DNA from: Acidimicrobiaceae bacterium
Lineage (GTDB): Bacteria; Actinomycetota; Acidimicrobiia; Acidimicrobiales; RAAP-2
NCBI GenBank assembly: GCA_027315315.1
Contig: DAHUYG010000026.1
Coordinates: 62,001-126,000 of the forward strand
Length of the DNA stretch: 64,000 nt
Direction: 5' to 3'
The notes under the pieces were generated by a model. It made no database searches and was not told the DNA's origin. It saw nothing but the letters and a program-made list of their open reading frames with translations. Positions within the stretch are counted from its first letter, which is position 1. Every line of letters starts with the position of its first letter. Below are positions 43,371-59,767 of the stretch, piece after piece. The position numbers and the translations under genes were made by a program.

Positions 43371-43467
43371 GGTCAGTGCACGCTATCGCCGGGCCCCCCG
43401 GGGCCCGCGGATCCCGGCGACGTCGTGAACTGCCGGGATGCTGTGGATGCTGCGCAACGCCTCCCCC

Positions 43468-43496
43468 TTGGCGAGCGAACATATGTTCGCTACCAT
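43468..43496 (+). promoter_or_regulatory. LexA-regulated, probably leaderless promoter (TTGGCG-N17-TACCAT with SOS palindrome in spacer)
   Basis: Perfect 16-bp palindrome GCGAACATATGTTCGC (43475-43490) fills the spacer; ATG at 43503. Confidence 0.8.
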
Positions 43497-43502
43497 TGCC
43501 CG

Positions 43503-44561
43503 ATGGGCTCGCCCGAGCACTCCGACGGCTTGCGCTGGCAGCTGGCCGACGACGAGGAGGCCGGCGCGTTGTTCCCCGACGAGCGGCGGGCGACCCGCCA
43601 CCGCGGCACCGGCGAGTACCGCGGCCTCGAATTCCTCCACGTGAACGCGAGGCGGATCATCAACTCGGTGCCGGGGGACTCCCTCGGGTTCCGCTACACC
43701 ATCAACCCCTATCGCGGGTGCTCGCATGCCTGCGTGTACTGCTTCGCCCGCCCGACCCACGAATACCTCGGGCTCGGGATCGGCGAGGACTTCGAGCGCA
43801 AGATCGTCGTGAAGGTGAACGCCGTCGAGCGCCTACGCGCCGAGCTGACCTCGCCAAACTGGCACGGGGACCTGATCGCCATGGGGACCAACACCGATCC
43901 GTACCAAGCGGCCGAGGGCAAGTACCACCTGACCCGAGGGATCATCGAGGTCCTCGGGGAGGCGAAGAACCCCTTCAGCATCCTCACCAAGTCCACGCTC
44001 GTGCTCCGGGACCTTCCCCGGCTCGAGGCGGCCGCTGCGGCGACCTCGGTCCGGCTCGACTTCTCCATCGGCACCCTTGATCGAGAGGTGTGGCGCTCGA
44101 CCGAGCCGGGCACTCCTCCGCCGGACCGCCGGATCGAGGCGGTCCGGCGGCTGAACGCGGCGGGGATCCCCTGCGGCGTGCTCGTCGCACCGATCCTGCC
44201 CGGGATCTCCGATCGCGAGGACCAGCTCCGGGCGGTCATCGAGGCGAGCCTGGCCGCCGGTGCGCGCTCGGTGACGGCCGTGCCGTTGCACCTGCGCGGC
44301 TCGGTCAGGGAGCACTACCTCGGGTGGTTGGAACGGACCCATCCCGAGCTCGTCGCCCGCCACGAGCGGCTGTTCGCGCGCGGGGCGTACCAGCCCCGCG
44401 CCGAGCGCGACCGGGTGGCCCGGCTCGTCTCGGGGATGCTGCCGCCTCGCAACGAGCCGGGGCCGCCCGTGGTCGGTCGGGGTGAGCGGACCGCGAGCCC
44501 GGTCCAAGAGCCGCCCGCGCGGTCCGACACCGGGATCCCGGTCCAGCTTCGGCTGGTCTAG
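43503..44561 (+). CDS. Rv2578c-like / SPL-family radical SAM protein
   Basis: FRYTINPYRGCSHACVYCFARPTHEYLG (CxxxCxxC), MGTNTDPYQAAEGKYHLTRGIIEVL. Start moved from 43425 to ATG 43503. Confidence 0.9.
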   Translation: MGSPEHSDGLRWQLADDEEAGALFPDERRATRHRGTGEYRGLEFLHVNARRIINSVPGDSLGFRYTINPYRGCSHACVYCFARPTHEYLGLGIGEDFERKIVVKVNAVERLRAELTSPNWHGDLIAMGTNTDPYQAAEGKYHLTRGIIEVLGEAKNPFSILTKSTLVLRDLPRLEAAAAATSVRLDFSIGTLDREVWRSTEPGTPPPDRRIEAVRRLNAAGIPCGVLVAPILPGISDREDQLRAVIEASLAAGARSVTAVPLHLRGSVREHYLGWLERTHPELVARHERLFARGAYQPRAERDRVARLVSGMLPPRNEPGPPVVGRGERTASPVQEPPARSDTGIPVQLRLV

Positions 44562-44658
44562 CTGGGAGGGCCCGACCCGCAGTCTCGTTTCGGGTCGGCG
44601 GCGGGGACCGTTGGTAAGGTCGGCCGGCATCCGCGTCGGTCCTTGGACGGTGAAATCG

Positions 44659-45465
44659 ATGAACGAAGCGCTCGCGTCCCACCCAGCCGAGGGGGGCGCC
44701 GTCGCATCGGCGCCGGGGACGGCTGGCGGTGCCCCGGGACAGCCCCGTCAGGGCGTCCATCCACTCGTGGGCCTGCTGGAGAAGGTGGCGGGCGACACCG
44801 CCGGGTTGGAGGTGCTCTACGAGGCCCTCGACCTCGTGGCCAAGCACTTCGACCTGGAAGACGTCCTCGTTGCCGTCGACAACGACACCGTTGGCCGTCA
44901 GGTCTTTCGGCTCGGACGGCTCCCGGTGGGTCCGGCCGAGCTCGGCCGGCTGGGCGATGGTCGCGAGTTCGTCTCGACCCCCGACTCGGTGCCACGCCCA
45001 ACCCAGAGCCTGGTGGCCGGCATCGCGGCGGTGGCCCTGGCGGCCGATGTGGCCCGCCGCCAGCTCGTGCGGGACCGGGCGACGGGGCTCCTCTCGCGCG
45101 CCGTCTTCAACGAGGCCCTCCGCTCGGCCGCCGCCCAGAGCTCCCGGTACGGCTGGATCTTCACCGTGATGGTGCTGCGGGTGGCGGGCGACCGGCCGCC
45201 CGACCGGCAGATCCGGCGCCTCGGGTACGCCTTCGGGCGGGCCCTGCGGACCGGGGACACGGGCGGCCGACTGCGCGACGCGACCTTCACGGCGTTGCTC
45301 CCGAACGCAACCGCCGAGTCGCTGCACGCGCTCGTCGGGCGCTTCTCGGCCGAGTCGGGGGTCCCGGTCGAATCGATACAGTTCGCCAGCGCCACCGCAC
45401 CCAAGGACTCGGTCGATCCGGCCGAGCTGTTCCGGCTCGCGGCGGCGAGGCTGCGTGAGTCCTGA
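44659..45465 (+). CDS. Degenerate GGDEF-like domain protein
   Basis: VRDRATGLLSRAVFNEAL resembles the GGDEF-domain N-terminal DxLTGLxNR segment, but the signature is replaced by GGRLRDATFTALLP. Confidence 0.6.
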   Translation: MNEALASHPAEGGAVASAPGTAGGAPGQPRQGVHPLVGLLEKVAGDTAGLEVLYEALDLVAKHFDLEDVLVAVDNDTVGRQVFRLGRLPVGPAELGRLGDGREFVSTPDSVPRPTQSLVAGIAAVALAADVARRQLVRDRATGLLSRAVFNEALRSAAAQSSRYGWIFTVMVLRVAGDRPPDRQIRRLGYAFGRALRTGDTGGRLRDATFTALLPNATAESLHALVGRFSAESGVPVESIQFASATAPKDSVDPAELFRLAAARLRES

Positions 45466-45521: not shown

Positions 45522-46139
45522 GTGAGCCATGATCTCGCCGAGTTGGAGCTCGAGCTGCGCCTCTTGCCAGGCGTCCTGAACGTCGGATTCGGCCCCGAGG
45601 AGCAGGGGGGGCACGTGGCCCTCAGCGTGGTCGCCCGCGACGCCGAGCCTGATCTCGAGCTCGTGGCGACCCGGATCGCCCGGGCCTTCCGGCAGTCGGC
45701 CACCGTCGAGATCCTCGATCTCTCGCCGCCGCGCCCGAGCGTCGGGGTGGTGACCCCGATGCCGGCGACGGTCTCCGACGAGCGGGTGGCCCTCGTCGAG
45801 AGCCGCGTCAACGAGGCGACCGGCGAGGCATCGGTGGTGCTCTCCTGGATGGGGAACTCGGCCAACGGCCACGGCGCGTCGGGCACCCTGGTCGGCCCGG
45901 CGGTCGCCACGCTCCAGGCGCTCGCCGGCCTCGGGATCGCGATCGACGCCCGCCTGGCCTCGGTGAGCTCGGGCCAGGGCATCGACAATCCCCCCGTGCG
46001 CGTGGTGCTTCGCTCGGAATTGGGCGAGGCCGAGTTCGTCGGCGTGGCCCGCGCCAACAGCGAGGCCGAATCGGCGGCCCGAGCGACCCTCGCGGCGTTC
46101 AACCGCTACGTCGGAGGGCTCGGCGCCCGCTTGAACTGA
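45522..46139 (+). CDS. Hypothetical protein
   Basis: 205 aa, MSHDLAELELELRLLPGVLNVGFGPEEQGGHVALSV..., strong coding pattern, no family recognised with confidence. Confidence 0.7.
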   Translation: MSHDLAELELELRLLPGVLNVGFGPEEQGGHVALSVVARDAEPDLELVATRIARAFRQSATVEILDLSPPRPSVGVVTPMPATVSDERVALVESRVNEATGEASVVLSWMGNSANGHGASGTLVGPAVATLQALAGLGIAIDARLASVSSGQGIDNPPVRVVLRSELGEAEFVGVARANSEAESAARATLAAFNRYVGGLGARLN

Positions 46140-46276: not shown

Positions 46277-49174
46277 GTGAGCCACATGATGCTGCCGGGT
46301 AGCACCCATCTCCTGGGCGCGGCGTATTTCGACGCCTCGTCGGGCCTGACATTCGAGGTGCACCACCCGATGGCGCGGCCCGATGTGTGGCGCGAGTACC
46401 TCGACGGCGCCGAGGCCGAGTACGCAAAGCACGGCGTCGGACAGGCCTTCCATCGGGCCGAGATCGAAGAGGCGCAGGGCGTCTCCATGTTCTTCGTCGG
46501 CCGCCGGCCCGACGGCACGGTGGCGGCCGGGATCCGGTGCCACGGACCCCTCACCACGATCGAGGAGTCCGAGTCGTTGCGCGAGATGTGCGACTCGGTG
46601 GAGATCGCCTACCTCACGGCGTGCGTCGAGCGGTTCTTGCCCTTCGGCGTGGTCGAGCAGAAGGGCGCGTGGAGCGCGGTGAAGGGCGTCGGGCCCCGGG
46701 CCATGTTCACCACCTTCAACCGCTGCAACCTCTACGCCATGGAGTGGCTCCGCTGCGAGTTCGCGATCTGCACCGTGCGCGAGCAGCTGAAGTCGACCAT
46801 CCACGCGAACGGCGGCCGCCAGCTCGGCACCCACAGCGTGCCGTTCCCGAGCGAGAAGCACCGCACCGTGATGATGGCCTACCGTCGCTGTCGGACGTCG
46901 GGCGCGGCCAAACCCATGCAGGCGACCGCCGAGCGCATCGAGCTCGGTCAGCTCTCCCGCTCGACGGCGCCTGGGCTCGAGCCCCTGCTCCCGGCGCTCG
47001 ACCGGGAGTCGTGGGGGCCGATGGTGTTGCGCTCGGACTCCCGCACCGACCGGGCGATCGCCCAGCGCCTGGCGGCCGGCCCGGTCCAGGCGATCGACCA
47101 GCTCGAGTCCCAGCGCGACGAGCTGCGGAGCCTCCGTCCTGCGGTGGGGCACGAGATCCTCGACGAGCCCTCGCGCTGGGTCTACTACCCGTGGCGCCGG
47201 ACGATGGTGAAGACGATCGGCCCGCTGGGCTTCGATCTCCTGCGCCTGGACCGCAATCGCAACAAGATCACCCGTGCCGAGCAGGAGAAGCTCCGCAAGG
47301 TGCGCATCGGGGTGGTCGGCCTGAGCGTCGGACACGCCATCGCGCACCTGCTCGCGATGGAGGGCCTCTGCGGCGAGCTGCGGCTCGCCGACTTCGACGA
47401 CCTGGCGGTGAGCAACCTCAACCGGATCCCCGCCACGCTCCTCGACCTCGGCATCAACAAGACGGTGGTCGCCGCCCGCCGGATCGCCGAGATCGATCCG
47501 TTCCTCAAGGTCTCGATCTGGCCGAAGGGGATCGACACCGACAACATCGAGCAGTTCCTGGAGGGCCTCGACATCGTGATCGAGGAGTGCGACTCGCTGG
47601 ATGTGAAGGTGCTCGTGCGCAGCGCTGCCCGTCGCCGGGGCATCCCCGTGATCATGGAGACGAGCGACCGCGGGTTGCTCGACGTCGAGCGGTTCGACGT
47701 GGAGCCCGACCGAGCCCCCTTCCACGGCCTCTTGGCCGGCGTCGATCTCGACGCCATCGCCGGGCTGTCGATGCGCGAGAAGGTGCCCTACGTGGTCCAG
47801 ATCCTCGAACCCGACCAGGTCTCGGCGCGCGGTGCCGCCTCGATGGCCGAGGTGGGGACCTCGCTCACCGCCTGGCCACAGCTCGCCGGCGACGTGACGC
47901 TCGGCGCGGCGACGACGGCCGCCGCGGTGCTCCGGCTGGTCCGCGAGGGGACGCTCGCCTCGGGGCGCGTCCGCGTCGACACCGACGCCCTGCTCTCGGC
48001 GCTCGCCGACCCCTTGACCCCGGACCTCATCGAGCCGGGGACCCCCGAGCTCCCCCAGCTCCCCGAGGACCCGGGCCAGCGGATCGCCTACGCGGCGAGC
48101 CGGGCCCCCTCGGGAGGCAACGTCCAGCCATGGTCCTTCGCGCTCGACGAGCGCAGCTTCAGCATCTACCTCGATCCCGCCAAGTCCGTGACCATGGACG
48201 TCGCCTACCGGGGCTCGTACGTGGCGATCGGTGCCGCGCTCTTCAGCGCCAGGGTGGCCGCATCGTCCGAGAGCGTGCTCGGCCCGCTCGACCTGTTCCC
48301 AGACGAGCGCTTCGACGGGCCCGTCGGGGTGCTGCACCTCGGCTCGGGCCACGACGTCGAGCTCGCCGGGCTGTTCGACGCGCTGCTGCGCCGCACGACG
48401 AACCGGCGCCGGGGTACCGCCGAGCCCGTCGACTCCGAACTGCTCGCGCGGCTGGCCGAGGAGGCCGAGGCCGAGCAGGGCGGGCTCCACACGATCACCA
48501 ACCGCCGCTCGATCGAGGCTGCCGGCGAGCTCCTGGCCGAGTCGGACCGGCTCCGCTTCCTCACCCCGGCGACCCACCGCGAGATGATGAGCGAGCTGCG
48601 CTGGCCGGGCCGGGACTCGCTCGAAACCGGCATCGACGTGCGCACCCTCGAGCTCGACGGCGCAGACATGGCCGCGCTGCAGCTCGCGAGGCGGGCCGAC
48701 GTCATGGAGAAGCTCGCCGACTGGGACGCCGGGCGGGCGCTCGGGGACAGCACCCGGCGCTCGATCGGCTCGTCCTCGGCCCTCGTGGCCGTGACCACCA
48801 GGGGCTCGGCTCCGGTCGACTTCGTCCGGGTGGGGGCGGCGGTCATGCGGGTGTGGCTGGCGGCCGAGCGGGCCGGGCTCGCGGTGCACCCCACCTCGCC
48901 CCTCTTCATCTACGCCCACGGCGGTGACAACTTCCGTGCCCTCGTCGGGAACCACCGGGCGAGGGGCCTGGCCTCGATCGCTTCGGACTTCCGGGCCCTC
49001 TTCGGCCTGGCCGGTCCCGAGCAGCTGGGCCTCGTCCTTCGACTCAGTCACGCCGAAGCGCCGAGTCTCCGGAGCCTGCGGCTCCCGCTCGAGACGGTGC
49101 TCTCGAGCCGGGCGGGCGCCCCCACCCCCCATCGCCAGGGATTTCTCGACCGGGGGGCCGGCCCGGGCCGCTGA
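46277..49174 (+). CDS. Rv1355c-like fusion: N-terminal GNAT-like region, ThiF/E1-like Rossmann domain, C-terminal nitroreductase-like domain
   Basis: 965 aa; E1-like LRKVRIGVVGLSVGHAIAHLLAMEG...LADFDDLAVSNLNR; nitroreductase-like RIAYAASRAPSGGNVQPWSFALDERSFSIYLD. Confidence 0.82.
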   Translation: MSHMMLPGSTHLLGAAYFDASSGLTFEVHHPMARPDVWREYLDGAEAEYAKHGVGQAFHRAEIEEAQGVSMFFVGRRPDGTVAAGIRCHGPLTTIEESESLREMCDSVEIAYLTACVERFLPFGVVEQKGAWSAVKGVGPRAMFTTFNRCNLYAMEWLRCEFAICTVREQLKSTIHANGGRQLGTHSVPFPSEKHRTVMMAYRRCRTSGAAKPMQATAERIELGQLSRSTAPGLEPLLPALDRESWGPMVLRSDSRTDRAIAQRLAAGPVQAIDQLESQRDELRSLRPAVGHEILDEPSRWVYYPWRRTMVKTIGPLGFDLLRLDRNRNKITRAEQEKLRKVRIGVVGLSVGHAIAHLLAMEGLCGELRLADFDDLAVSNLNRIPATLLDLGINKTVVAARRIAEIDPFLKVSIWPKGIDTDNIEQFLEGLDIVIEECDSLDVKVLVRSAARRRGIPVIMETSDRGLLDVERFDVEPDRAPFHGLLAGVDLDAIAGLSMREKVPYVVQILEPDQVSARGAASMAEVGTSLTAWPQLAGDVTLGAATTAAAVLRLVREGTLASGRVRVDTDALLSALADPLTPDLIEPGTPELPQLPEDPGQRIAYAASRAPSGGNVQPWSFALDERSFSIYLDPAKSVTMDVAYRGSYVAIGAALFSARVAASSESVLGPLDLFPDERFDGPVGVLHLGSGHDVELAGLFDALLRRTTNRRRGTAEPVDSELLARLAEEAEAEQGGLHTITNRRSIEAAGELLAESDRLRFLTPATHREMMSELRWPGRDSLETGIDVRTLELDGADMAALQLARRADVMEKLADWDAGRALGDSTRRSIGSSSALVAVTTRGSAPVDFVRVGAAVMRVWLAAERAGLAVHPTSPLFIYAHGGDNFRALVGNHRARGLASIASDFRALFGLAGPEQLGLVLRLSHAEAPSLRSLRLPLETVLSSRAGAPTPHRQGFLDRGAGPGR

Positions 49175-49316
49175 ACCGGGCCGCTGGGGCCGGCCCGCTA
49201 CCGATGGGTGGCGCGGCCCCGCCACCGGGCAAAGGTCCACGTCACGGGGCCCCCGGGCCCGTAGGCTCGCAAGAGCTGATTTTTCGCGCCGGCACAGGGC
49301 GTCCGAGGACCGAGCG

Positions 49317-51632
49317 ATGAGCGAGCTTCCCCCACCCCACGTAGACGACAGCGCAGGCGACGGCACGCCCTTCGATCCCGCCGACCCGCCGGTGATCATC
49401 GCGGGCCTGTCGCAGCTGCTCGCCTGGTCGAAGGCCATCGTCCTCGTCCCGCTGCGCGACCAGGCCCCGGCCGGCTCCGAGGGCTGCAACTGGATCGTCG
49501 AGGGCCAACCCGAGTCGGCCGCGCTCTCGATCGGGAAGCTCCTGACCGACCGCCTCCGCGCCGCTGGACCCCTCGGCTATCTGGAGCCCGACCAGGACGC
49601 CTCGCCCGAGACTGCGTCCTGGTCGCTGTGGGCCGAACCGGTGCGCATCGGACCGGGGAGCGCGGTCGGTGCCCTCGGCGTCGCCCGCAACCGCGCCGAG
49701 CGCTGGACCGAGAACGACGTCTCGACGGTGCGGGTGTTCGCTGCGCTGTGCGGTTCGGCGTGGGCCCGGGCCTCGGCCGAGTACCAGGGCAGCCTCGACG
49801 AGCTCGTCATCCGGGCCGCCGACCGCCTGATGGTGGCGACGGCGGCCAACTACAAAGAGACGCTGACCGAGATCCTGACCGAGCTGGCCGAGTTCCTGCG
49901 GGCCGACGTGGCGTTCATCCGCAAGAACGACCGGATCGCCGACACGAGCGTGCTGGTCGCCGAGTACCCGGCCCGGGACTTCATCCCGGACCCCGACCCA
50001 CTGGCCGTGGTCTCGTTCAGCTCGGACCCGGTCTTCGAGCGCCTGCGGGACCTGAAGGAGCCCTTCGTCCTTCGCCAGTCGGCCGCCCCCGACGACTACA
50101 ACGAGCGGGTCGTCGACGGCTCGGGCGTCACCGACTGGTCCGGCGCGGTCGTCCCGCTCTTGAAGGGGGAGGTGACCGACGGCTCGCTCGGGTTCATGCA
50201 GTTCTACGACGCCAAGTGGACCCAGCCCCAGATCAACGCCCTGCAGGCCATCGCGTCCATGCTGGTCCAGCTCGACGCCCGCATCGACGCCGAGACCCGC
50301 CTCCAGCACCTTGCGCTGCACGACGACCTGACCGGCCTGCCGAACCGCCGGGCCCTGATCGAGGAGCTCGAGCGCCGGCTCAACAACGGGCGGACCCCGG
50401 TCGCCCTCCTCTTCTTGGACCTCGACCGCTTCAAGTACATGAACGACTATCTCGGGCATCTGGCCGGCGACCGCGTGCTCGTCACCACCGCGGATCGCAT
50501 CAGGATGTCGGTGCGGCCCGGGGACTTCACGGCCCGCCTCGGCGGCGACGAGTTCCTGGTCGTCATGAACGGCGCCGGGGGCGAGCTCGCATGCATGGCC
50601 ACCGCCAACCGCCTTCTCTCGCTCGTCTCCAAGCCGCTCGAGGTCGCCTCCCAGCACGTCTCGCACACCGCGAGCGTGGGGATCGCGGTGGCCAACCCGG
50701 GCGAGATGAGCGCGGTGCAGCTCCTCGGGAACGCCGACGTCGCCCTCTTCGCCGCCAAGACCCAGGGTCGCAACCGGGCCGTCGTCTTCGACGACGTGCT
50801 CCGACTCGCCGTCGACGAGCGCACCGGCACCGAGATGATGCTGCGCGAGGCCATTGCGAGCGGGGGCCTGCGCCTCTACTACCAGCCCGAGATCGACATG
50901 ACCACGGGAAAGATCCTGGGCGTCGAGGCCCTCATCCGCTGCGTGCACCCCGAGCGGGGGGTCATCCCGGCCGGGCAGTTCATCACGGTCGCCGAGGAGA
51001 CCGGGCTCGTGGTCGACCTCGGCCGGTGGGTGATCGAGGAGTCCTGCCGCCAGATGCGGGTGTGGCGCGACCGCTACCCCGGGCTCGACCTGCTCATGCG
51101 CATCAACATGTCGCCGGCTCAGCTGTCCTCGCCCGGCATCACCGAGCACATCAGCCGGTGCCTGCGCCAGTCGAACCTGCTCGGCTCGGCGCTGTGCCTC
51201 GAGATCACCGAGCACGTGGTGATGCAGGACGTCGACCGGGCCATCGCGATCCTCGACGAGTTCCGGACCCTCGGCCTGCGCCTCGCCATGGACGACTTCG
51301 GGACCGGCTTCTCCTCCATGGCCCAGCTGAAGCGCATCCCGATCGACACCCTCAAGATCGACATGAGCTTCGTGATCGGGCTCGCCCAGGACCCCGGCGA
51401 CCAGGCGATCGTCGAGGCGATCGTGCACCTCGGCGAGTCCTTCGGGCTCGACCTGGTGGCCGAGGGCGTGGAGAACGAGGCCGACATGCACGAGCTCATC
51501 CGGCTCGGCTGCGTCCGGGCCCAGGGCTTCCTGCTCGCGAAGCCCGCCCCGGCCTCCGAGCTCGACCCGCTGCTGTGGCGCGGCGGGATCGACCTCGCCC
51601 GGCTCGGTGGCGCTGTCCGAAAGACCGGCTAG
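49317..51632 (+). CDS. GAF-GGDEF-EAL bifunctional cyclic-di-GMP protein
   Basis: 771 aa from ATG 49317; HDDLTGLPNRRALIEEL, ARLGGDEFLVVM, YYQPEIDMTTGKILGVEALIR, AMDDFGTGFSSMAQLKRIPIDTLKID. Confidence 0.92.
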   Translation: MSELPPPHVDDSAGDGTPFDPADPPVIIAGLSQLLAWSKAIVLVPLRDQAPAGSEGCNWIVEGQPESAALSIGKLLTDRLRAAGPLGYLEPDQDASPETASWSLWAEPVRIGPGSAVGALGVARNRAERWTENDVSTVRVFAALCGSAWARASAEYQGSLDELVIRAADRLMVATAANYKETLTEILTELAEFLRADVAFIRKNDRIADTSVLVAEYPARDFIPDPDPLAVVSFSSDPVFERLRDLKEPFVLRQSAAPDDYNERVVDGSGVTDWSGAVVPLLKGEVTDGSLGFMQFYDAKWTQPQINALQAIASMLVQLDARIDAETRLQHLALHDDLTGLPNRRALIEELERRLNNGRTPVALLFLDLDRFKYMNDYLGHLAGDRVLVTTADRIRMSVRPGDFTARLGGDEFLVVMNGAGGELACMATANRLLSLVSKPLEVASQHVSHTASVGIAVANPGEMSAVQLLGNADVALFAAKTQGRNRAVVFDDVLRLAVDERTGTEMMLREAIASGGLRLYYQPEIDMTTGKILGVEALIRCVHPERGVIPAGQFITVAEETGLVVDLGRWVIEESCRQMRVWRDRYPGLDLLMRINMSPAQLSSPGITEHISRCLRQSNLLGSALCLEITEHVVMQDVDRAIAILDEFRTLGLRLAMDDFGTGFSSMAQLKRIPIDTLKIDMSFVIGLAQDPGDQAIVEAIVHLGESFGLDLVAEGVENEADMHELIRLGCVRAQGFLLAKPAPASELDPLLWRGGIDLARLGGAVRKTG

Positions 51633-54404: not shown

Positions 54405-55574
54405 TCAGGCGACCGCGCGGGCCACCGGCGAGCCGTCGGCGAAGGCGTCGGCGTCCTCGGTCGAGTCCTCGAGATGCTCGAACGCGATGACCCCCATCTC
54501 GGTGAACTTCTGGCGGAGCCAGCCGTCGGCCGCGTCGAGGAGCCCGAGCTTGCGCAGGTTCGGCACGATCTTAGAGAACAGGAGGATCTGGAAGTCGTCG
54601 TTGGCCGGATCCTGGCGCTCGTTGATGGCCACGATGTCCTTCCAGGGCACCTCCAGGCGGTCCCAGACCTCCTGGGAGCGCAGCCGGTCTCGCATCCGCA
54701 CCGCCGCCTCGAAGGCGAACTCCTGGCGCTCGCGCAGCTCGGCCGCGGAGAGCTCCGAGTAGAGCTCCTGGAGGCTGAGCACGCCGAAGGCCACGTGGCG
54801 GGCCTCGTCGGCCATCACGTAGCGGAGCATCTTCTTCAAGAGCGGCTCCTCGGAGATCTGGTGCATGAACCCGAACGCCGCAAGCGCCAGGCCCTCCACC
54901 ATGATTTGCATCCCGAGATAGGTCATGTCCCAGCGCGAGTCGGCGATGATGTCGTCGAGCAGCATGCCGAGGTGGGCGTTCATCGGGTAGTGGCCCGAGA
55001 GCTTCTCGTCGAGGTAGCGCGAGAACACCTCGACGTGGCGGGCCTCGTCGACCACCTGGGTCGCCGCGTAGTACTTGGCGTCGATCCACGGCACCGTCTC
55101 GACGATCTTGGCCGTACAGAGGAGCGCACCCTGCTCGCCGTGCATGAACTGGCTGAGGGTCCAGTTCTGGCTCTCCACCCCGAAGCGCACCCACTGCTTC
55201 TCGTCCCACTTGGCGAGCGCGGTGCCGGCGAGCACCTTCTCGTCCCAGCCCATCTGGGTCGGGTTGGTGGCGAAGTTGGCCATCACCTGGGCCTCCTGGT
55301 CGACGGGGGTCTCCCAGGGCAGGTCGGTGGTGGCGTTCCACTGCGCCGACTTGGCCTTCTCGTAGAGCTTGTCCAGCTTCTCCAGCCGTCCCTTGTCGTA
55401 GTCCCAGGTGAACTCGGCGTCGCAGTTGTCGTGGACGGCGTGGCGGCCGCTCTCCTCTTGATGGCCGATGACCGACAAGATGGCCTCGAGATCGTTCACA
55501 TCGGCGCGGCCGATGATCTCCTCGGTGCTGCGCATCTCGCCTGGGTCCTTCGGCTGGTCGATCTCGGTCGTCAT
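54405..55574 (-). CDS. Ferritin-like diiron-domain protein
   Basis: Helical protein with paired ExxH motifs DEARHVEVF and DEARHVAFG; ATG at 55574 overlaps the TetR stop (ATGA). N-terminal third of the track ORF is a shadow. Confidence 0.82.
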   Translation of the reverse strand: MTTEIDQPKDPGEMRSTEEIIGRADVNDLEAILSVIGHQEESGRHAVHDNCDAEFTWDYDKGRLEKLDKLYEKAKSAQWNATTDLPWETPVDQEAQVMANFATNPTQMGWDEKVLAGTALAKWDEKQWVRFGVESQNWTLSQFMHGEQGALLCTAKIVETVPWIDAKYYAATQVVDEARHVEVFSRYLDEKLSGHYPMNAHLGMLLDDIIADSRWDMTYLGMQIMVEGLALAAFGFMHQISEEPLLKKMLRYVMADEARHVAFGVLSLQELYSELSAAELRERQEFAFEAAVRMRDRLRSQEVWDRLEVPWKDIVAINERQDPANDDFQILLFSKIVPNLRKLGLLDAADGWLRQKFTEMGVIAFEHLEDSTEDADAFADGSPVARAVA

Positions 55575-56323
55575 CTGGTTCTCCGTGTGCTCGCTCGTGG
55601 GTCGGTGATCTTCACTTCGTCTGGCTCGAGGCTGCTGTCCGTGGGTTGGGCGGGGTTGCAAAGCGCGAGCACACCGGGCAGCACGAAGCGGCCCACCAGG
55701 TGCTCGACATCGGCGCGGCTGGTCGGGTCGAGGCGCCCGGTCTCCTCGCACAGGTAGCTCATCGTGATGCGCGCCGCCCACTCGGCGGCCCGGGCGGCCT
55801 GGTCGGGCTCGAGCCAGCGACCGAGGAACGGCGCTGCGAACGACGATGCGAGCGCGAGCACGCGGTCCATCGAGTCGAAGCAGAGGTGGGGCAGGATGAC
55901 GCCGGGCTCGTGGTCGAGGAGGTAGCGCAGGGCCCGGTGGTCCTCGAGCCGACGGGCCGCCTCCACGATGCCGACGACCAGGACCTCCTCGAGGTCGTGG
56001 GCCTCGCCCATGGCGACAGCCAGATCGGAGAAGAACCTCGCGGCCTCGGTGTCGACTGTCGCCGCCAGGATCGCCTCGCGGCCGCCGGGGAAGGCCCGGT
56101 ACACGGTGGCGCGCGACAGTCCAGCCCAGCTCGCGATGTCGTCGAGGGTGGTCTTGGCCAGGCCCTGGGTCGCGAGGCACCCGAGGGTGGCGTCCACGAT
56201 CCGGACCCGCTGGGAGGAGCGGTCGTCGGCCCCGAGGTGCCGCACGCGGGCGCTCGGCGCGTCTGGGTGGGCCGGGCTGTCGTCGGCCGACGCGATGCGC
56301 GAAACCCCCGTGGACACAGGCAC
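55571..56323 (-). CDS. TetR family transcriptional regulator
   Basis: RVRIVDATLGCLATQGLAKTTLDDIASWAGLSRATVYRAFPGGREAILAATV. GTG 56323 preferred to the track ATG at 56377, see findings. Confidence 0.85.
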   Translation of the reverse strand: MPVSTGVSRIASADDSPAHPDAPSARVRHLGADDRSSQRVRIVDATLGCLATQGLAKTTLDDIASWAGLSRATVYRAFPGGREAILAATVDTEAARFFSDLAVAMGEAHDLEEVLVVGIVEAARRLEDHRALRYLLDHEPGVILPHLCFDSMDRVLALASSFAAPFLGRWLEPDQAARAAEWAARITMSYLCEETGRLDPTSRADVEHLVGRFVLPGVLALCNPAQPTDSSLEPDEVKITDPRASTRRTR

Positions 56324-56553: not shown

Positions 56554-57411
56554 GTGGCCCGCTTCCGCGCCCATCGCGCCGACGACGAGCTCGGCCCGCC
56601 GGCCCGCTCGGCCGCCGAGCAGCGCGCCGAAGAGATCCGTGCGTTGAGCGCCCGGGTGGCGGGCGACGCCACCGAGCCGCTCGGGGTCTACGCGTTCCGC
56701 CCCGAGGAGCCCGAGGCACTGCTCGCCCTGTCGGTCGAAGAGCGCGTCTTCGAGGAGGCTATCGGCGACACCGCAGCGGCCGTCGTGGCCGACGAGTTCA
56801 CCCCCTATGACCACGCCAGCCTGCTCTTCTGCGTGCTCGACCAGCACCGCAAGGCGCCGGCGGCCATGCTCCGGCTGATCCTGCCCTCGCGGGCGGGGCT
56901 GAAGACCCTGAACGACACGACGAGGATCTGGGAGGCCCCCCTCGACGCGCTGTTCGCCGGGTCGGGCATCGACTACGACCCGAACCACACCTGGGACCTC
57001 GCGACGCTCGCAATAGGCCCCGAGTACCGGGCGGCGGCCTTCCAGGGGACCGTGACGATGGCGCTGTGCCAGGCGGTGTCCATGCTCGGGGCGCGGCTCG
57101 GGTTCCCCTGGGCCGTCTCGGTGCTCCACGTGCCGGTGCTCCGCATGCTCCAGTGGAAGCTCCAGCGGCCGTTCAACGAGTTCGAGGGGCTCGAGCCCCG
57201 CCCCTACCTGGACTCGCCGGCCAGCCTGCCGGCCTGGATGCACCTCCCCGAATGGCACCGCCGCCTGGCCGAGCGCGACCGGGTGCTCCACCAGATGATG
57301 ACCGAGGGCACCGGGCTCGAGCCGGCGGTGCGCCCCCCGGACTGGGACCGGGCGGCCGAGCTGGCCGCCGAGGTCAGCGCCCTGGCCGACCTGCGCCTCC
57401 ATCTCCGGTAA
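56554..57411 (+). CDS. Hypothetical protein, possible GNAT/autoinducer-synthase-like fold
   Basis: 285 aa; AAAVVADEFTPYDHASLLFCVLDQHRKAPAAMLRLILPSRAGLKTLNDTTRIW; GTG start. Confidence 0.65.
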   Translation: MARFRAHRADDELGPPARSAAEQRAEEIRALSARVAGDATEPLGVYAFRPEEPEALLALSVEERVFEEAIGDTAAAVVADEFTPYDHASLLFCVLDQHRKAPAAMLRLILPSRAGLKTLNDTTRIWEAPLDALFAGSGIDYDPNHTWDLATLAIGPEYRAAAFQGTVTMALCQAVSMLGARLGFPWAVSVLHVPVLRMLQWKLQRPFNEFEGLEPRPYLDSPASLPAWMHLPEWHRRLAERDRVLHQMMTEGTGLEPAVRPPDWDRAAELAAEVSALADLRLHLR

Positions 57412-59767
57412 CCAGGCGCAGACCGTGGCGGGGCGAGATCGCCCGCACCGTTGCGATGACCTCCTCGGCGTCCACCGGCCGTGAGTACAAGAACCCCTGG
57501 GCGAGGTCGCAGCCGAGCTGGCGCAGCGTGCGCTCCTGGGACTCGTGCTCGACCCCCTCGGCGATGGTGACCGCCTCGAGGGCGCGGGCCATCGAGCAGA
57601 TCGCGGCCACGAGGGTGGCGTCCGTCGGGTCGCTCGAGGTCAGGCCCTCGACGAAGCGCCGGTCGATCTTCACGTAGTCGACCGGGAACTGCTTCAGGTA
57701 GGGCAGCGAGGCGTACCCGTTGCCGAAGTCGTCGATGGCGAGGCGGACGCCGAGCTCCTTCATCCGGATCACGAGCCCCACCCCCTCGGCCGGGTTGTCC
57801 ATGAGGGTCGACTCGCTGAGTTCGACGCACAGCGCATCGGGCTCGAGCCCGGTCTCGGCGAGCGCTCGGCGGACCCGCGCCGGGAGGGCGGTCGATTTTA
57901 GGTGCAGGGCCGATACGTTCACCGACACGAAGAGCGCCTGGGCGCCGGGCACCTCGCGCCAGCGGGCCAGCTGGCGGGCCGACTCGCGGATGACCCAGTC
58001 GCCGATCTCGGTCAACAGGCCGCTCGCCTCGGCGCACTCGATGAAGAAGGACGCCGGGACGAGGCCCCTCGTCGGGCGGTCCCAACGCAGCAGCGCCTCG
58101 AGGCCGGCCACCACCGGTCCGTCCTCCGAGAGGCTCACGATGGGCTGGTACATGAGGCAGAACTCGTCGCGCTCGAGGGCGCGGCGCAGGTCGTGCTCGA
58201 GCGCGAGGCGATCGGCGATGCGGTCCCGCATCGAGGGGTCGAAGACCGTCACCATGTCGCGCCCGGCCGCCTTCGCCTGGTACATGGCGGTGTCGGCGTC
58301 GCGCAGGAGGGTCTCGGCGTCGACGCCCGGCTCGGCCGACGAGCCGAGCGACACCCCGACGCTCGCCGACACCAAGAGGTCGGCGCCATAGATCCGGAAG
58401 GGAGCGCCGAGCGCGGTGTGCGCCCGCTCGGCCTCGTGGCGTGCGGCGCCGCCGGTGGCCACCGGGAACAGGACGACGGCGAACTCGTCCCCGCCCACGC
58501 GAGCGACGTTCCCCCGGCCCTGAAAGGCTCGCTCGAGCCGCTCCCCCACCTCGACGAGGAGCTGGTCGCCGCAGCTGTAGCCGTGGGCGTCGTTCACCAT
58601 CTTGAACCGGTCGATGTCGAGGAAGATCACGGCCACGCCGTCGCCGGCCCGGGCCCCCTCGGCCAGCGCCGCGCTGACCGAGCGCTCGGCCAGGGAGCGG
58701 TTGCCGAGCCCGGTGAGCGGGTCGTGGGTGACCTCGTGGGTGAGCCGCGCCTGGGTCTGCGCCCCGCCGGCCACCGCACGCCAGACCCGCAGTGCGGCGA
58801 CGGACACCGACACGGCTCCGAAGATGCCCAACGCGAGTCGTTGGTAGCCCGAGCGGCTCGATTCGCTGAGGCCGATGCCCGCGAGTAGGGCCGGAGCGAG
58901 GACGACCGCGACCAGCCGGGCCCTCGAATCGGTCGGCTCGTGGGTCGGGCTCCAGCGTCCGCCGAAGAGCCGGCGCATGGTGGGGTGCAAGAAGGCGACC
59001 CCGAAGCAGCTCGCCGCGAGGATGAACGGGACGCCGAGGAGCGAGTGGGTGATGGCCGCCCGCCGCACGTCGGCGACCAGGTAGAGGACTTCGCCGACGG
59101 TCAGCCACCCGGCCGCGGCGATGAGGAAGCGTCCCGAGATCGACCGGCGGGCCCGGGGCAGGATCCCGATGAGCACCACGGCGAGGCCGTAGACGCCGAG
59201 CGCTGGGAAGAGCGCCAGCATGGCCCGCTCGAAGGTCGGCATCTGGAGGCTGGGCGCCGCCGGCTCGACGAGGTAGGTCCACAGCACGACATACGCGCTC
59301 ACGCCGCCCACGAGTCCCTCGAGCACCATGTCGGGGTTGCGCCGGTCGTGGGGGTGCGGCGCCCGGGCGAGGACGGTCAGGGCAAAGGCCACGAGCGCGG
59401 CCCCGACCAACCAGAGCACGTCGGGCAGGAGCGCCCGTTGCGCCGCCACCATCCCGAGGGTGTGGCGGTCGAGCCGGACCCACCCGCCGAGGCCGAGCAG
59501 GACCACCCCGGCGAGGAGCACCTCCCAGGGACCGCGGCGGGGCGGGGCGTGGAGCCGGAGCCCCGCGAGCATCGCCCCGAGCGTGCCCAGCGCGACGAGC
59601 ACCAGCGCGACCTCCCGGACGCGCCAGGGCCCCGGGACCGCGTCGAGCACGGCGAGCGCCGCGCCGGCGGCCCCAAAGCCGCTCGCCGCGAGCGTGGAGC
59701 GCTCGGCCCGGGGGCGCCCGGCGGGTCGCGGCGTCATGCCCTGGCCTCGGGTCGCATGGCCGCCCAT
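57374..59767 (-). CDS. Multi-TM GGDEF-EAL cyclic-di-GMP protein
   Basis: Multiple N-terminal TMs; HDPLTGLGNRSLAERSV, ARVGGDEFAVVLFP, MYQPIVSLSEDGPVVAGLEALLRW, AIDDFGNGYASLPYLKQFPVDYVKID. Confidence 0.92.
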   Translation of the reverse strand: MGGHATRGQGMTPRPAGRPRAERSTLAASGFGAAGAALAVLDAVPGPWRVREVALVLVALGTLGAMLAGLRLHAPPRRGPWEVLLAGVVLLGLGGWVRLDRHTLGMVAAQRALLPDVLWLVGAALVAFALTVLARAPHPHDRRNPDMVLEGLVGGVSAYVVLWTYLVEPAAPSLQMPTFERAMLALFPALGVYGLAVVLIGILPRARRSISGRFLIAAAGWLTVGEVLYLVADVRRAAITHSLLGVPFILAASCFGVAFLHPTMRRLFGGRWSPTHEPTDSRARLVAVVLAPALLAGIGLSESSRSGYQRLALGIFGAVSVSVAALRVWRAVAGGAQTQARLTHEVTHDPLTGLGNRSLAERSVSAALAEGARAGDGVAVIFLDIDRFKMVNDAHGYSCGDQLLVEVGERLERAFQGRGNVARVGGDEFAVVLFPVATGGAARHEAERAHTALGAPFRIYGADLLVSASVGVSLGSSAEPGVDAETLLRDADTAMYQAKAAGRDMVTVFDPSMRDRIADRLALEHDLRRALERDEFCLMYQPIVSLSEDGPVVAGLEALLRWDRPTRGLVPASFFIECAEASGLLTEIGDWVIRESARQLARWREVPGAQALFVSVNVSALHLKSTALPARVRRALAETGLEPDALCVELSESTLMDNPAEGVGLVIRMKELGVRLAIDDFGNGYASLPYLKQFPVDYVKIDRRFVEGLTSSDPTDATLVAAICSMARALEAVTIAEGVEHESQERTLRQLGCDLAQGFLYSRPVDAEEVIATVRAISPRHGLRLVTGDGGAGRPGR

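Follow-up and report, generated by a model that had tools for sequence, protein, structure and literature searches.

The window (the whole stretch of 64,000 nucleotides that we analysed) lies on contig 34 of a metagenome-assembled Acidimicrobiaceae genome (G000; 2.47 Mb, 92% complete). It carries a gene for a 965-residue protein in which three enzyme-like parts are joined, and this gene is flanked by one encoding a 205-residue protein and by one encoding a GAF-GGDEF-EAL protein (Table 1). A preliminary description, made from the letters of this DNA, had proposed that the long open reading frame encodes such a three-part fusion. That the frame is real is indicated by its strong coding bias (GC of 0.71, 0.50 and 0.94 at codon positions 1, 2 and 3, respectively), by the alignment of a relative in locus L003, 86% identical, from residue 1 onward, and by the detection of all three domains.

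Table 1 Features of the synthase locus (coordinates are those of the window)
Feature	Coordinates	Strand	Basis
205-aa protein upstream of the synthase	45522..46139	+	tblastn matches in L003-L006, L009-L013, L032 and L040
Single-chain acyl-oxazolone synthase (predicted TrzA-TrzS fusion), 965 aa, GTG start	46277..49174	+	Pfam, NCBIfam, alignment of relatives
FeeM/TrzA-like GNAT acyltransferase domain, residues 13-228	46313..46960	+	AlphaFold2 model, fold match to FeeM (2g0b)
ThiF/E1-like adenylating cyclase domain (predicted), residues about 315-570	47219..47986	+	Pfam PF00899, Foldseek, ATP-site residues
Codon of D439, ThiF ATP-site Asp, equivalent to D217 of M. smegmatis TrzS	47591..47593	+	Alignment
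Flavin-dependent oxidase (nitroreductase-superfamily) desaturase domain (predicted), residues 595-944	48059..49108	+	PF00881, Acg homologue 2ymv
Codon of R760, probable equivalent of M. smegmatis TrzS R540	48554..48556	+	Invariance, spacing
Codon of H871, position of M. smegmatis TrzS Q651	48887..48889	+	Alignment, spacing
GAF-GGDEF-EAL protein, Rv1354c orthologue by position and sequence	49317..51632	+	Pfam; GGDEF and EAL motifs intact

The larger part of the protein, residues 243-944, is spanned by the NCBIfam model NF005901 ('Rv1355c family') almost over its full length (model positions 8-720 of 722; 893.9 bits and E 7.5e-269, with a curated cut-off of 476 bits), and is ~50% identical to TrzS of Mycolicibacterium, Rhodococcus and Nocardia. 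The resemblance to Rv1355c had thus been recognised correctly in the preliminary description. The label 'uncharacterised' that was attached to this family no longer holds: Rv1355c is now TrzS, an acyl-tryptazolone cyclase-desaturase that together with Rv1356c (TrzA) produces N-acyl tryptazolones (PMC12856293), a role for Rv1355c having been predicted earlier (PMC10404671).

Searches with the N-terminal part, either alone or as a 32-member alignment, gave no usable sequence match in Pfam, NCBIfam or the PDB, and the GNAT fold of this domain was recognised by structure prediction and fold search only. In particular, the AlphaFold2 model (pLDDT 87.7) has as its best fold match in the PDB FeeM (2g0b; E 5.6e-7, TM 0.71 by target length, 12% identity), itself a stand-alone protein, followed by other GNATs and by the acyl-homoserine-lactone synthases TofI, BjaI and MesI. 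The structure prediction therefore bears out the earlier proposal of a GNAT or autoinducer-synthase-like N terminus, for which a missing GNAT fold had been named as the contrary outcome. The proposed extent of ~270 residues does not stand, as the domain ends near residue 228 and residues 243-314 are already of the Rv1355c type. Nor is the N terminus an additional unit, as had been thought; rather, it is the counterpart of the partner enzyme TrzA (Rv1356c), for which Mycobacteriales have a separate gene next to trzS. Residues 1-228 are 25-33% identical over ~200 residues to the separate TrzA of Mycobacteriales (tblastn), and a TrzA-type gene lies directly upstream of trzS in the loci retrieved from Mycolicibacterium, Rhodococcus, Rhodococcoides and Nocardia. 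Moreover, P31, W38, F72, G85, R87, G90, P91, G124 and E127 are invariant in a joint alignment of the fused and split acyltransferases.

In the middle of the protein, residues 325-459 match the Pfam ThiF family (PF00899, E 6.3e-25). Foldseek matches to this domain include AclA (9egb), ThiF, MoeB and TcdA, and also Uba4, with TcdA as the closest sequence match in the PDB. In an N-acylated amino acid borne on a modified nucleoside, TcdA activates the carboxylate for cyclisation, and to have TcdA as the closest relative fits an ATP-driven carboxylate cyclisation by the ThiF domain. All of the 20 fused proteins aligned have R326, D374, N380, R383, K395 and D439, and the same ATP-site residues are kept in the split and outgroup sequences that we checked. 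The ThiF/E1-like nature of the middle part, against which a lack of conservation in the E1 pocket would have spoken, is accordingly upheld by the Pfam match and by an alignment in which the pocket is intact. (Note that the altered GxGxxG loop, GLSVGH, that had caught attention earlier is real but is a family-wide trait, G348, S350, G352 and H353 being invariant in the 20 fused proteins.) The D217A variant of M. smegmatis TrzS yields neither cyclised nor desaturated product (PMC12856293).

The C-terminal domain, suspected from the outset to be nitroreductase-like, matches the Pfam Nitroreductase family (PF00881) with an E value of 3.5e-6, above the curated cut-off, and the Acg homologue 2ymv both in sequence (E 2.9e-16) and in fold (TM 0.74). 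Acg was also the template on which TrzS was modelled in the literature (PMC12856293). R760 and H871 are 111 residues apart, equal to the spacing of residues 540 and 651 in M. smegmatis TrzS, and it is by this spacing that we tentatively equate them. R760 is invariant in the fused, split and outgroup sequences checked, and the R540A variant of M. smegmatis TrzS is impaired in desaturation (PMC12856293). Position 871, presumed to lie at the FMN/substrate site, is His in the clade of the window and Gln in most relatives.

Because residues 243-944 belong to the TrzS family and residues 1-228 are homologous to TrzA, the product of the gene next to trzS in Mycobacteriales, we consider it highly probable that the 965-residue protein is a natural one-chain TrzA-TrzS acyl-oxazolone synthase, with its chemistry assigned by homology. 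In the window and in its relatives the TrzA-like and TrzS-like parts form one reading frame with no intervening stop. We envisage that the GNAT domain would N-acylate an aromatic amino acid with acyl-CoA (or acyl carrier protein) as the acyl donor; L-tryptophan is the most likely acceptor, given that the TrzS part is a member of the Trz family. The ThiF domain would then use ATP to activate the carboxylate, allowing the amide oxygen to attack and to close an oxazolone (azlactone) ring, and the C-terminal FMN domain would introduce an exocyclic C=C in an O2-dependent step, yielding a lipid of the N-acyl tryptazolone type. The fusion would presumably channel the acyl-amino acid intermediate. For the split homologues all three reactions have been demonstrated by others. 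In TrzS, cyclisation precedes desaturation in an obligate order, and whether this fixed order stems from the fusion of the two activities is left unsettled by the authors, who did not obtain M. tuberculosis TrzS in sufficient amount (PMC12856293). Of the modified peptide or amino-acid-derived product suggested in the preliminary description, the homology to TrzA and TrzS favours the amino-acid-derived one, and we found nothing pointing to a peptide.

Two points weigh against carrying the TrzA/TrzS chemistry over unchanged: with 25-33% identity to TrzA-type genes, the acyltransferase part could differ in both acceptor and donor, and the Gln651 of TrzS, at the presumed FMN/substrate site, is replaced by H871. 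We infer the preferred amino acid and acyl chain length of the fused enzyme, and Tyr or Phe acceptors are possible because the acyltransferase domain is distant from TrzA. It is a serious possibility, if not the one that we favour, that the same three steps are carried out on tyrosine, phenylalanine or another acceptor, with longer acyl chains, to give an oxazolone of the tyrazolone, phenazolone or a new type. Besides the divergence of the acyltransferase domain and the exchange at position 871, it is in keeping with such an acceptor that FeeM makes N-acyl tyrosine and that both OxzAB and TyzACB produce tyrazolones. What argues for tryptophan instead is that the cyclase-desaturase part falls within the TrzS family NF005901 and that the TrzS cluster lies apart from the tyrazolone cluster in a sequence similarity network (PMC12856293).

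The form in which the product accumulates could also differ. No oxazolones were detectable in described N-acyl tyrosine pathways whose genes include ones of the ThiF and nitroreductase types, and none were observed in producers of thalassotalic/kyonggic acid and stieleriacine that have such genes (PMC12479983), so that the isolated end product might be an open-chain N-acyl-2,3-dehydro amino acid, with the oxazolone as a transient that is hydrolysed. Tryptazolones are easily hydrolysed in acid; gentle extraction nevertheless reveals them in M. smegmatis and R. jostii RHA1 cells (PMC12856293), and we think a stable open-chain product unlikely. We give almost no credence to the idea that the ThiF domain functions as a genuine E1 for a ubiquitin-like or sulfur-carrier protein and that the other domains modify a protein or peptide conjugate. 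The E1-type ATP site is kept, and ThiF, MoeB and Uba4 are among the fold matches, as this idea would have it, but no match to a carrier protein of either kind was obtained among those neighbouring genes that were scanned with Pfam, and the ThiF region has two cysteines only (C365 and C438), without the zinc-binding CxxC pair of the MoeB/ThiF kind. Furthermore, the nearest PDB sequence match, TcdA, is a carboxylate cyclase, and the characterised homologues use acyl amino acids.

Taken as a one-chain TrzA-TrzS synthase, the protein has its closest known counterpart in the TrzA and TrzS pair (Rv1356c/Rv1355c, also of M. smegmatis and R. jostii RHA1), whose operon encodes these three domains in this order, with the same GAF-GGDEF-EAL gene next in line. 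In addition to the ~50% identity of the TrzS parts, the ATP-site Asp is kept, as, probably, is the FMN-site Arg. The two differ in that TrzA and TrzS are two polypeptides of Mycobacteriales with Gln651, whereas the window encodes one polypeptide of an Acidimicrobiaceae bacterium with His at this position, and in the low identity of TrzA to the acyltransferase part. OxzA and OxzB of Pseudoalteromonas rubra likewise combine an N-acyltransferase with a ThiF-oxidase fusion and catalyse reactions of like type (PMC10404671, PMC12856293); there, however, the acyltransferase gene is separate, the ThiF part belongs to another cluster, and Tyr and Phe are the substrates, giving tyrazolones and phenazolones. 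The same three activities are found in TyzA, TyzB and TyzC of M. tuberculosis, which make C12:0-tyrazolone, but as three separate proteins and with an order of cyclisation and desaturation that is not obligate. The 989-residue NCBIfam model NF011425 (PRK14852), to which no function is assigned, possibly shares the three-part plan: it aligns with the window protein in the ThiF part (about model positions 309-470) and, equally spaced, in the nitroreductase part (about 612-798), with ~300 residues ahead of ThiF and an N-terminal part that has no match to that of the window protein. (The window protein scores 97.9 bits against PRK14852, for which the cut-off is 1337, and was rejected as a member.) PRK14852 was considered as a candidate for an older family of this three-part kind, but none of its members was found in the genomes reached.

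In the literature searched we found no published description of the three-domain fusion, although an earlier mention is possible since the original OxzAB paper was not among our results. What is new here is the predicted single-chain variant, and what is known is the recently characterised TrzA/TrzS pathway. The function of acyl-oxazolones is an open question in the biology of M. tuberculosis (PMC12856293), and a single-chain enzyme from an environmental lineage would be a simpler object than the split pair for work on structure, channelling and mechanism.

The fusion, in one frame, occurs in at least 21 genomes of actinobacteria, which belong to two classes. Among the 41 nearest genomes, that of the window included, 13 have the synthase, in all cases fused. 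In an even draw of 397 Actinomycetota genomes TrzS was present in 16, of which three belong to the family of the window and three to family f65, of another class, all with the fused form; in the other 10, which belong to family f50, TrzS is always a separate protein. (Note that a 17th match in this draw, in G120, was a weak match to ThiF only and was not counted.) A class-level draw added three further genomes of the window's family with the fused form (G533, G598 and G639). The split form was seen in named loci of Mycobacteriaceae and Nocardiaceae, in Mycobacteriales as two adjacent genes, and forms one clade in the trees of both the TrzS part and the acyltransferase part. Since this split Mycobacteriales clade is nested inside the fused forms in the TrzS-part tree, the tree suggests that an ancestral fusion was split to give the gene pair of mycobacteria. 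However, a single fused clade was not rejected in an AU test (p 0.26) and the acyltransferase tree has no outgroup, and we therefore leave fusion versus fission undecided. In two genomes of the Mycobacteriales type trzA and trzS are several kb apart, with the GAF-GGDEF-EAL gene beside trzA in one (G398; L048, L066) and beside trzS in the other (G412; L056, L065). A different arrangement occurs in Streptomyces sp. ISL-43, where a 1205-codon stop-to-stop frame (L036:4434-8048) contains a ThiF part, a nitroreductase part and, at the C terminus, a long extension; this frame has no acyltransferase match, and the extension has no match in Pfam.

The most informative part of the gene context, on which the preliminary description was silent, is the GAF-GGDEF-EAL neighbour, whose orthologue Rv1354c is a bifunctional diguanylate cyclase/phosphodiesterase (PMC2994820). 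Wherever a fused locus has enough flanking sequence, the gene adjoins that of the synthase on the same strand, and it does so in nearly all loci of Mycobacteriales as well. In the f65 lineage (L043, L045 and L047) it is located upstream rather than downstream of the synthase, so that the two genes either stayed neighbours despite rearrangement or became neighbours again through it. The flanks of three distant TrzS-like loci, from a gammaproteobacterium (L033), Streptomyces (L036) and Planotetraspora (L037), lack the GAF-GGDEF-EAL gene. The sensory N-terminal part of the protein occurs in exactly the same 13 of the 41 relatives as the synthase (Fisher p 6e-11), and a search with an alignment of the GAF region scored in 18 of the 397 genomes of the phylum, namely in 16 of 16 with TrzS and in 2 of the 381 others (Fisher p 1e-26); these p-values exaggerate the association, as related genomes are not independent, but it extends over at least two classes. 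The assemblies of the two scoring genomes that lack a synthase match are both fragmented. As judged by the translations, the GAF-GGDEF-EAL gene lies beside a gcvH-like gene in one (G399; L078) and beside a dnaE-like gene in the other (G169; L079), which indicates that the c-di-GMP enzyme can exist without the synthase. Because the genome of the window has only 8 EAL domains, we estimate that adjacency by chance would be of the order of 1% per genome (for about 2,400 genes).

The simplest reading of this coupling, which we offer as a hypothesis, is a functional link in which control runs from c-di-GMP to the lipid or, by way of the GAF domain, from the lipid to the c-di-GMP enzyme; alternatively, the genes may be co-inherited as a block with no such link. 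More tentatively, and with some doubt on our part, the GAF domain of the neighbour might read the acyl-oxazolone, or the N-acyl amino acid from which it is made, as a signal or metabolic cue. If so, synthase and receptor would form a unit resembling LuxI-LuxR in logic, with c-di-GMP as its output, kept from Acidimicrobiaceae to Mycobacterium and represented in M. tuberculosis by Rv1356c-Rv1355c-Rv1354c. The assignment of the enzyme is well founded on homology; the idea of a signalling role is hypothetical. The c-di-GMP neighbours of the M. tuberculosis genes were mentioned previously (PMC12856293), and our literature search found no report of a phylum-wide coupling. The near-perfect association across the phylum extends the remark of those authors and makes for a strong, testable link between the lipid and c-di-GMP.

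With regard to the other surroundings of the gene, no Rfam match to a riboswitch, for c-di-GMP or otherwise, was obtained near the synthase gene at E 0.5, nor any consensus match to a promoter; a weak terminator-like site is present between the synthase and GAF-GGDEF-EAL genes (49264-49277). In Acidimicrobiaceae the gene for the 205-residue protein, which has no Pfam match, is conserved immediately ahead of that for the synthase, with 56-81% identity among close relatives and about 30-35% in others; it was not seen beside the split mycobacterial genes, and may be part of the same unit as the synthase. Within 15 kb around the synthase there are three genes of the GGDEF family, at 44482-45465 (+), 49317-51632 (+) and 57374-59767 (-), of which the first has a GGDEF domain that is weak and apparently degenerate and the other two encode full GGDEF-EAL proteins. 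Between ftsK and this c-di-GMP region lies a gene (43425-44561, +) for a radical SAM protein weakly similar to spore photoproduct lyase, and on the other side of the synthase the product of 54405-56180 (-) has an AurF-like diiron oxygenase domain, with a Pfam score slightly below the curated cut-off.
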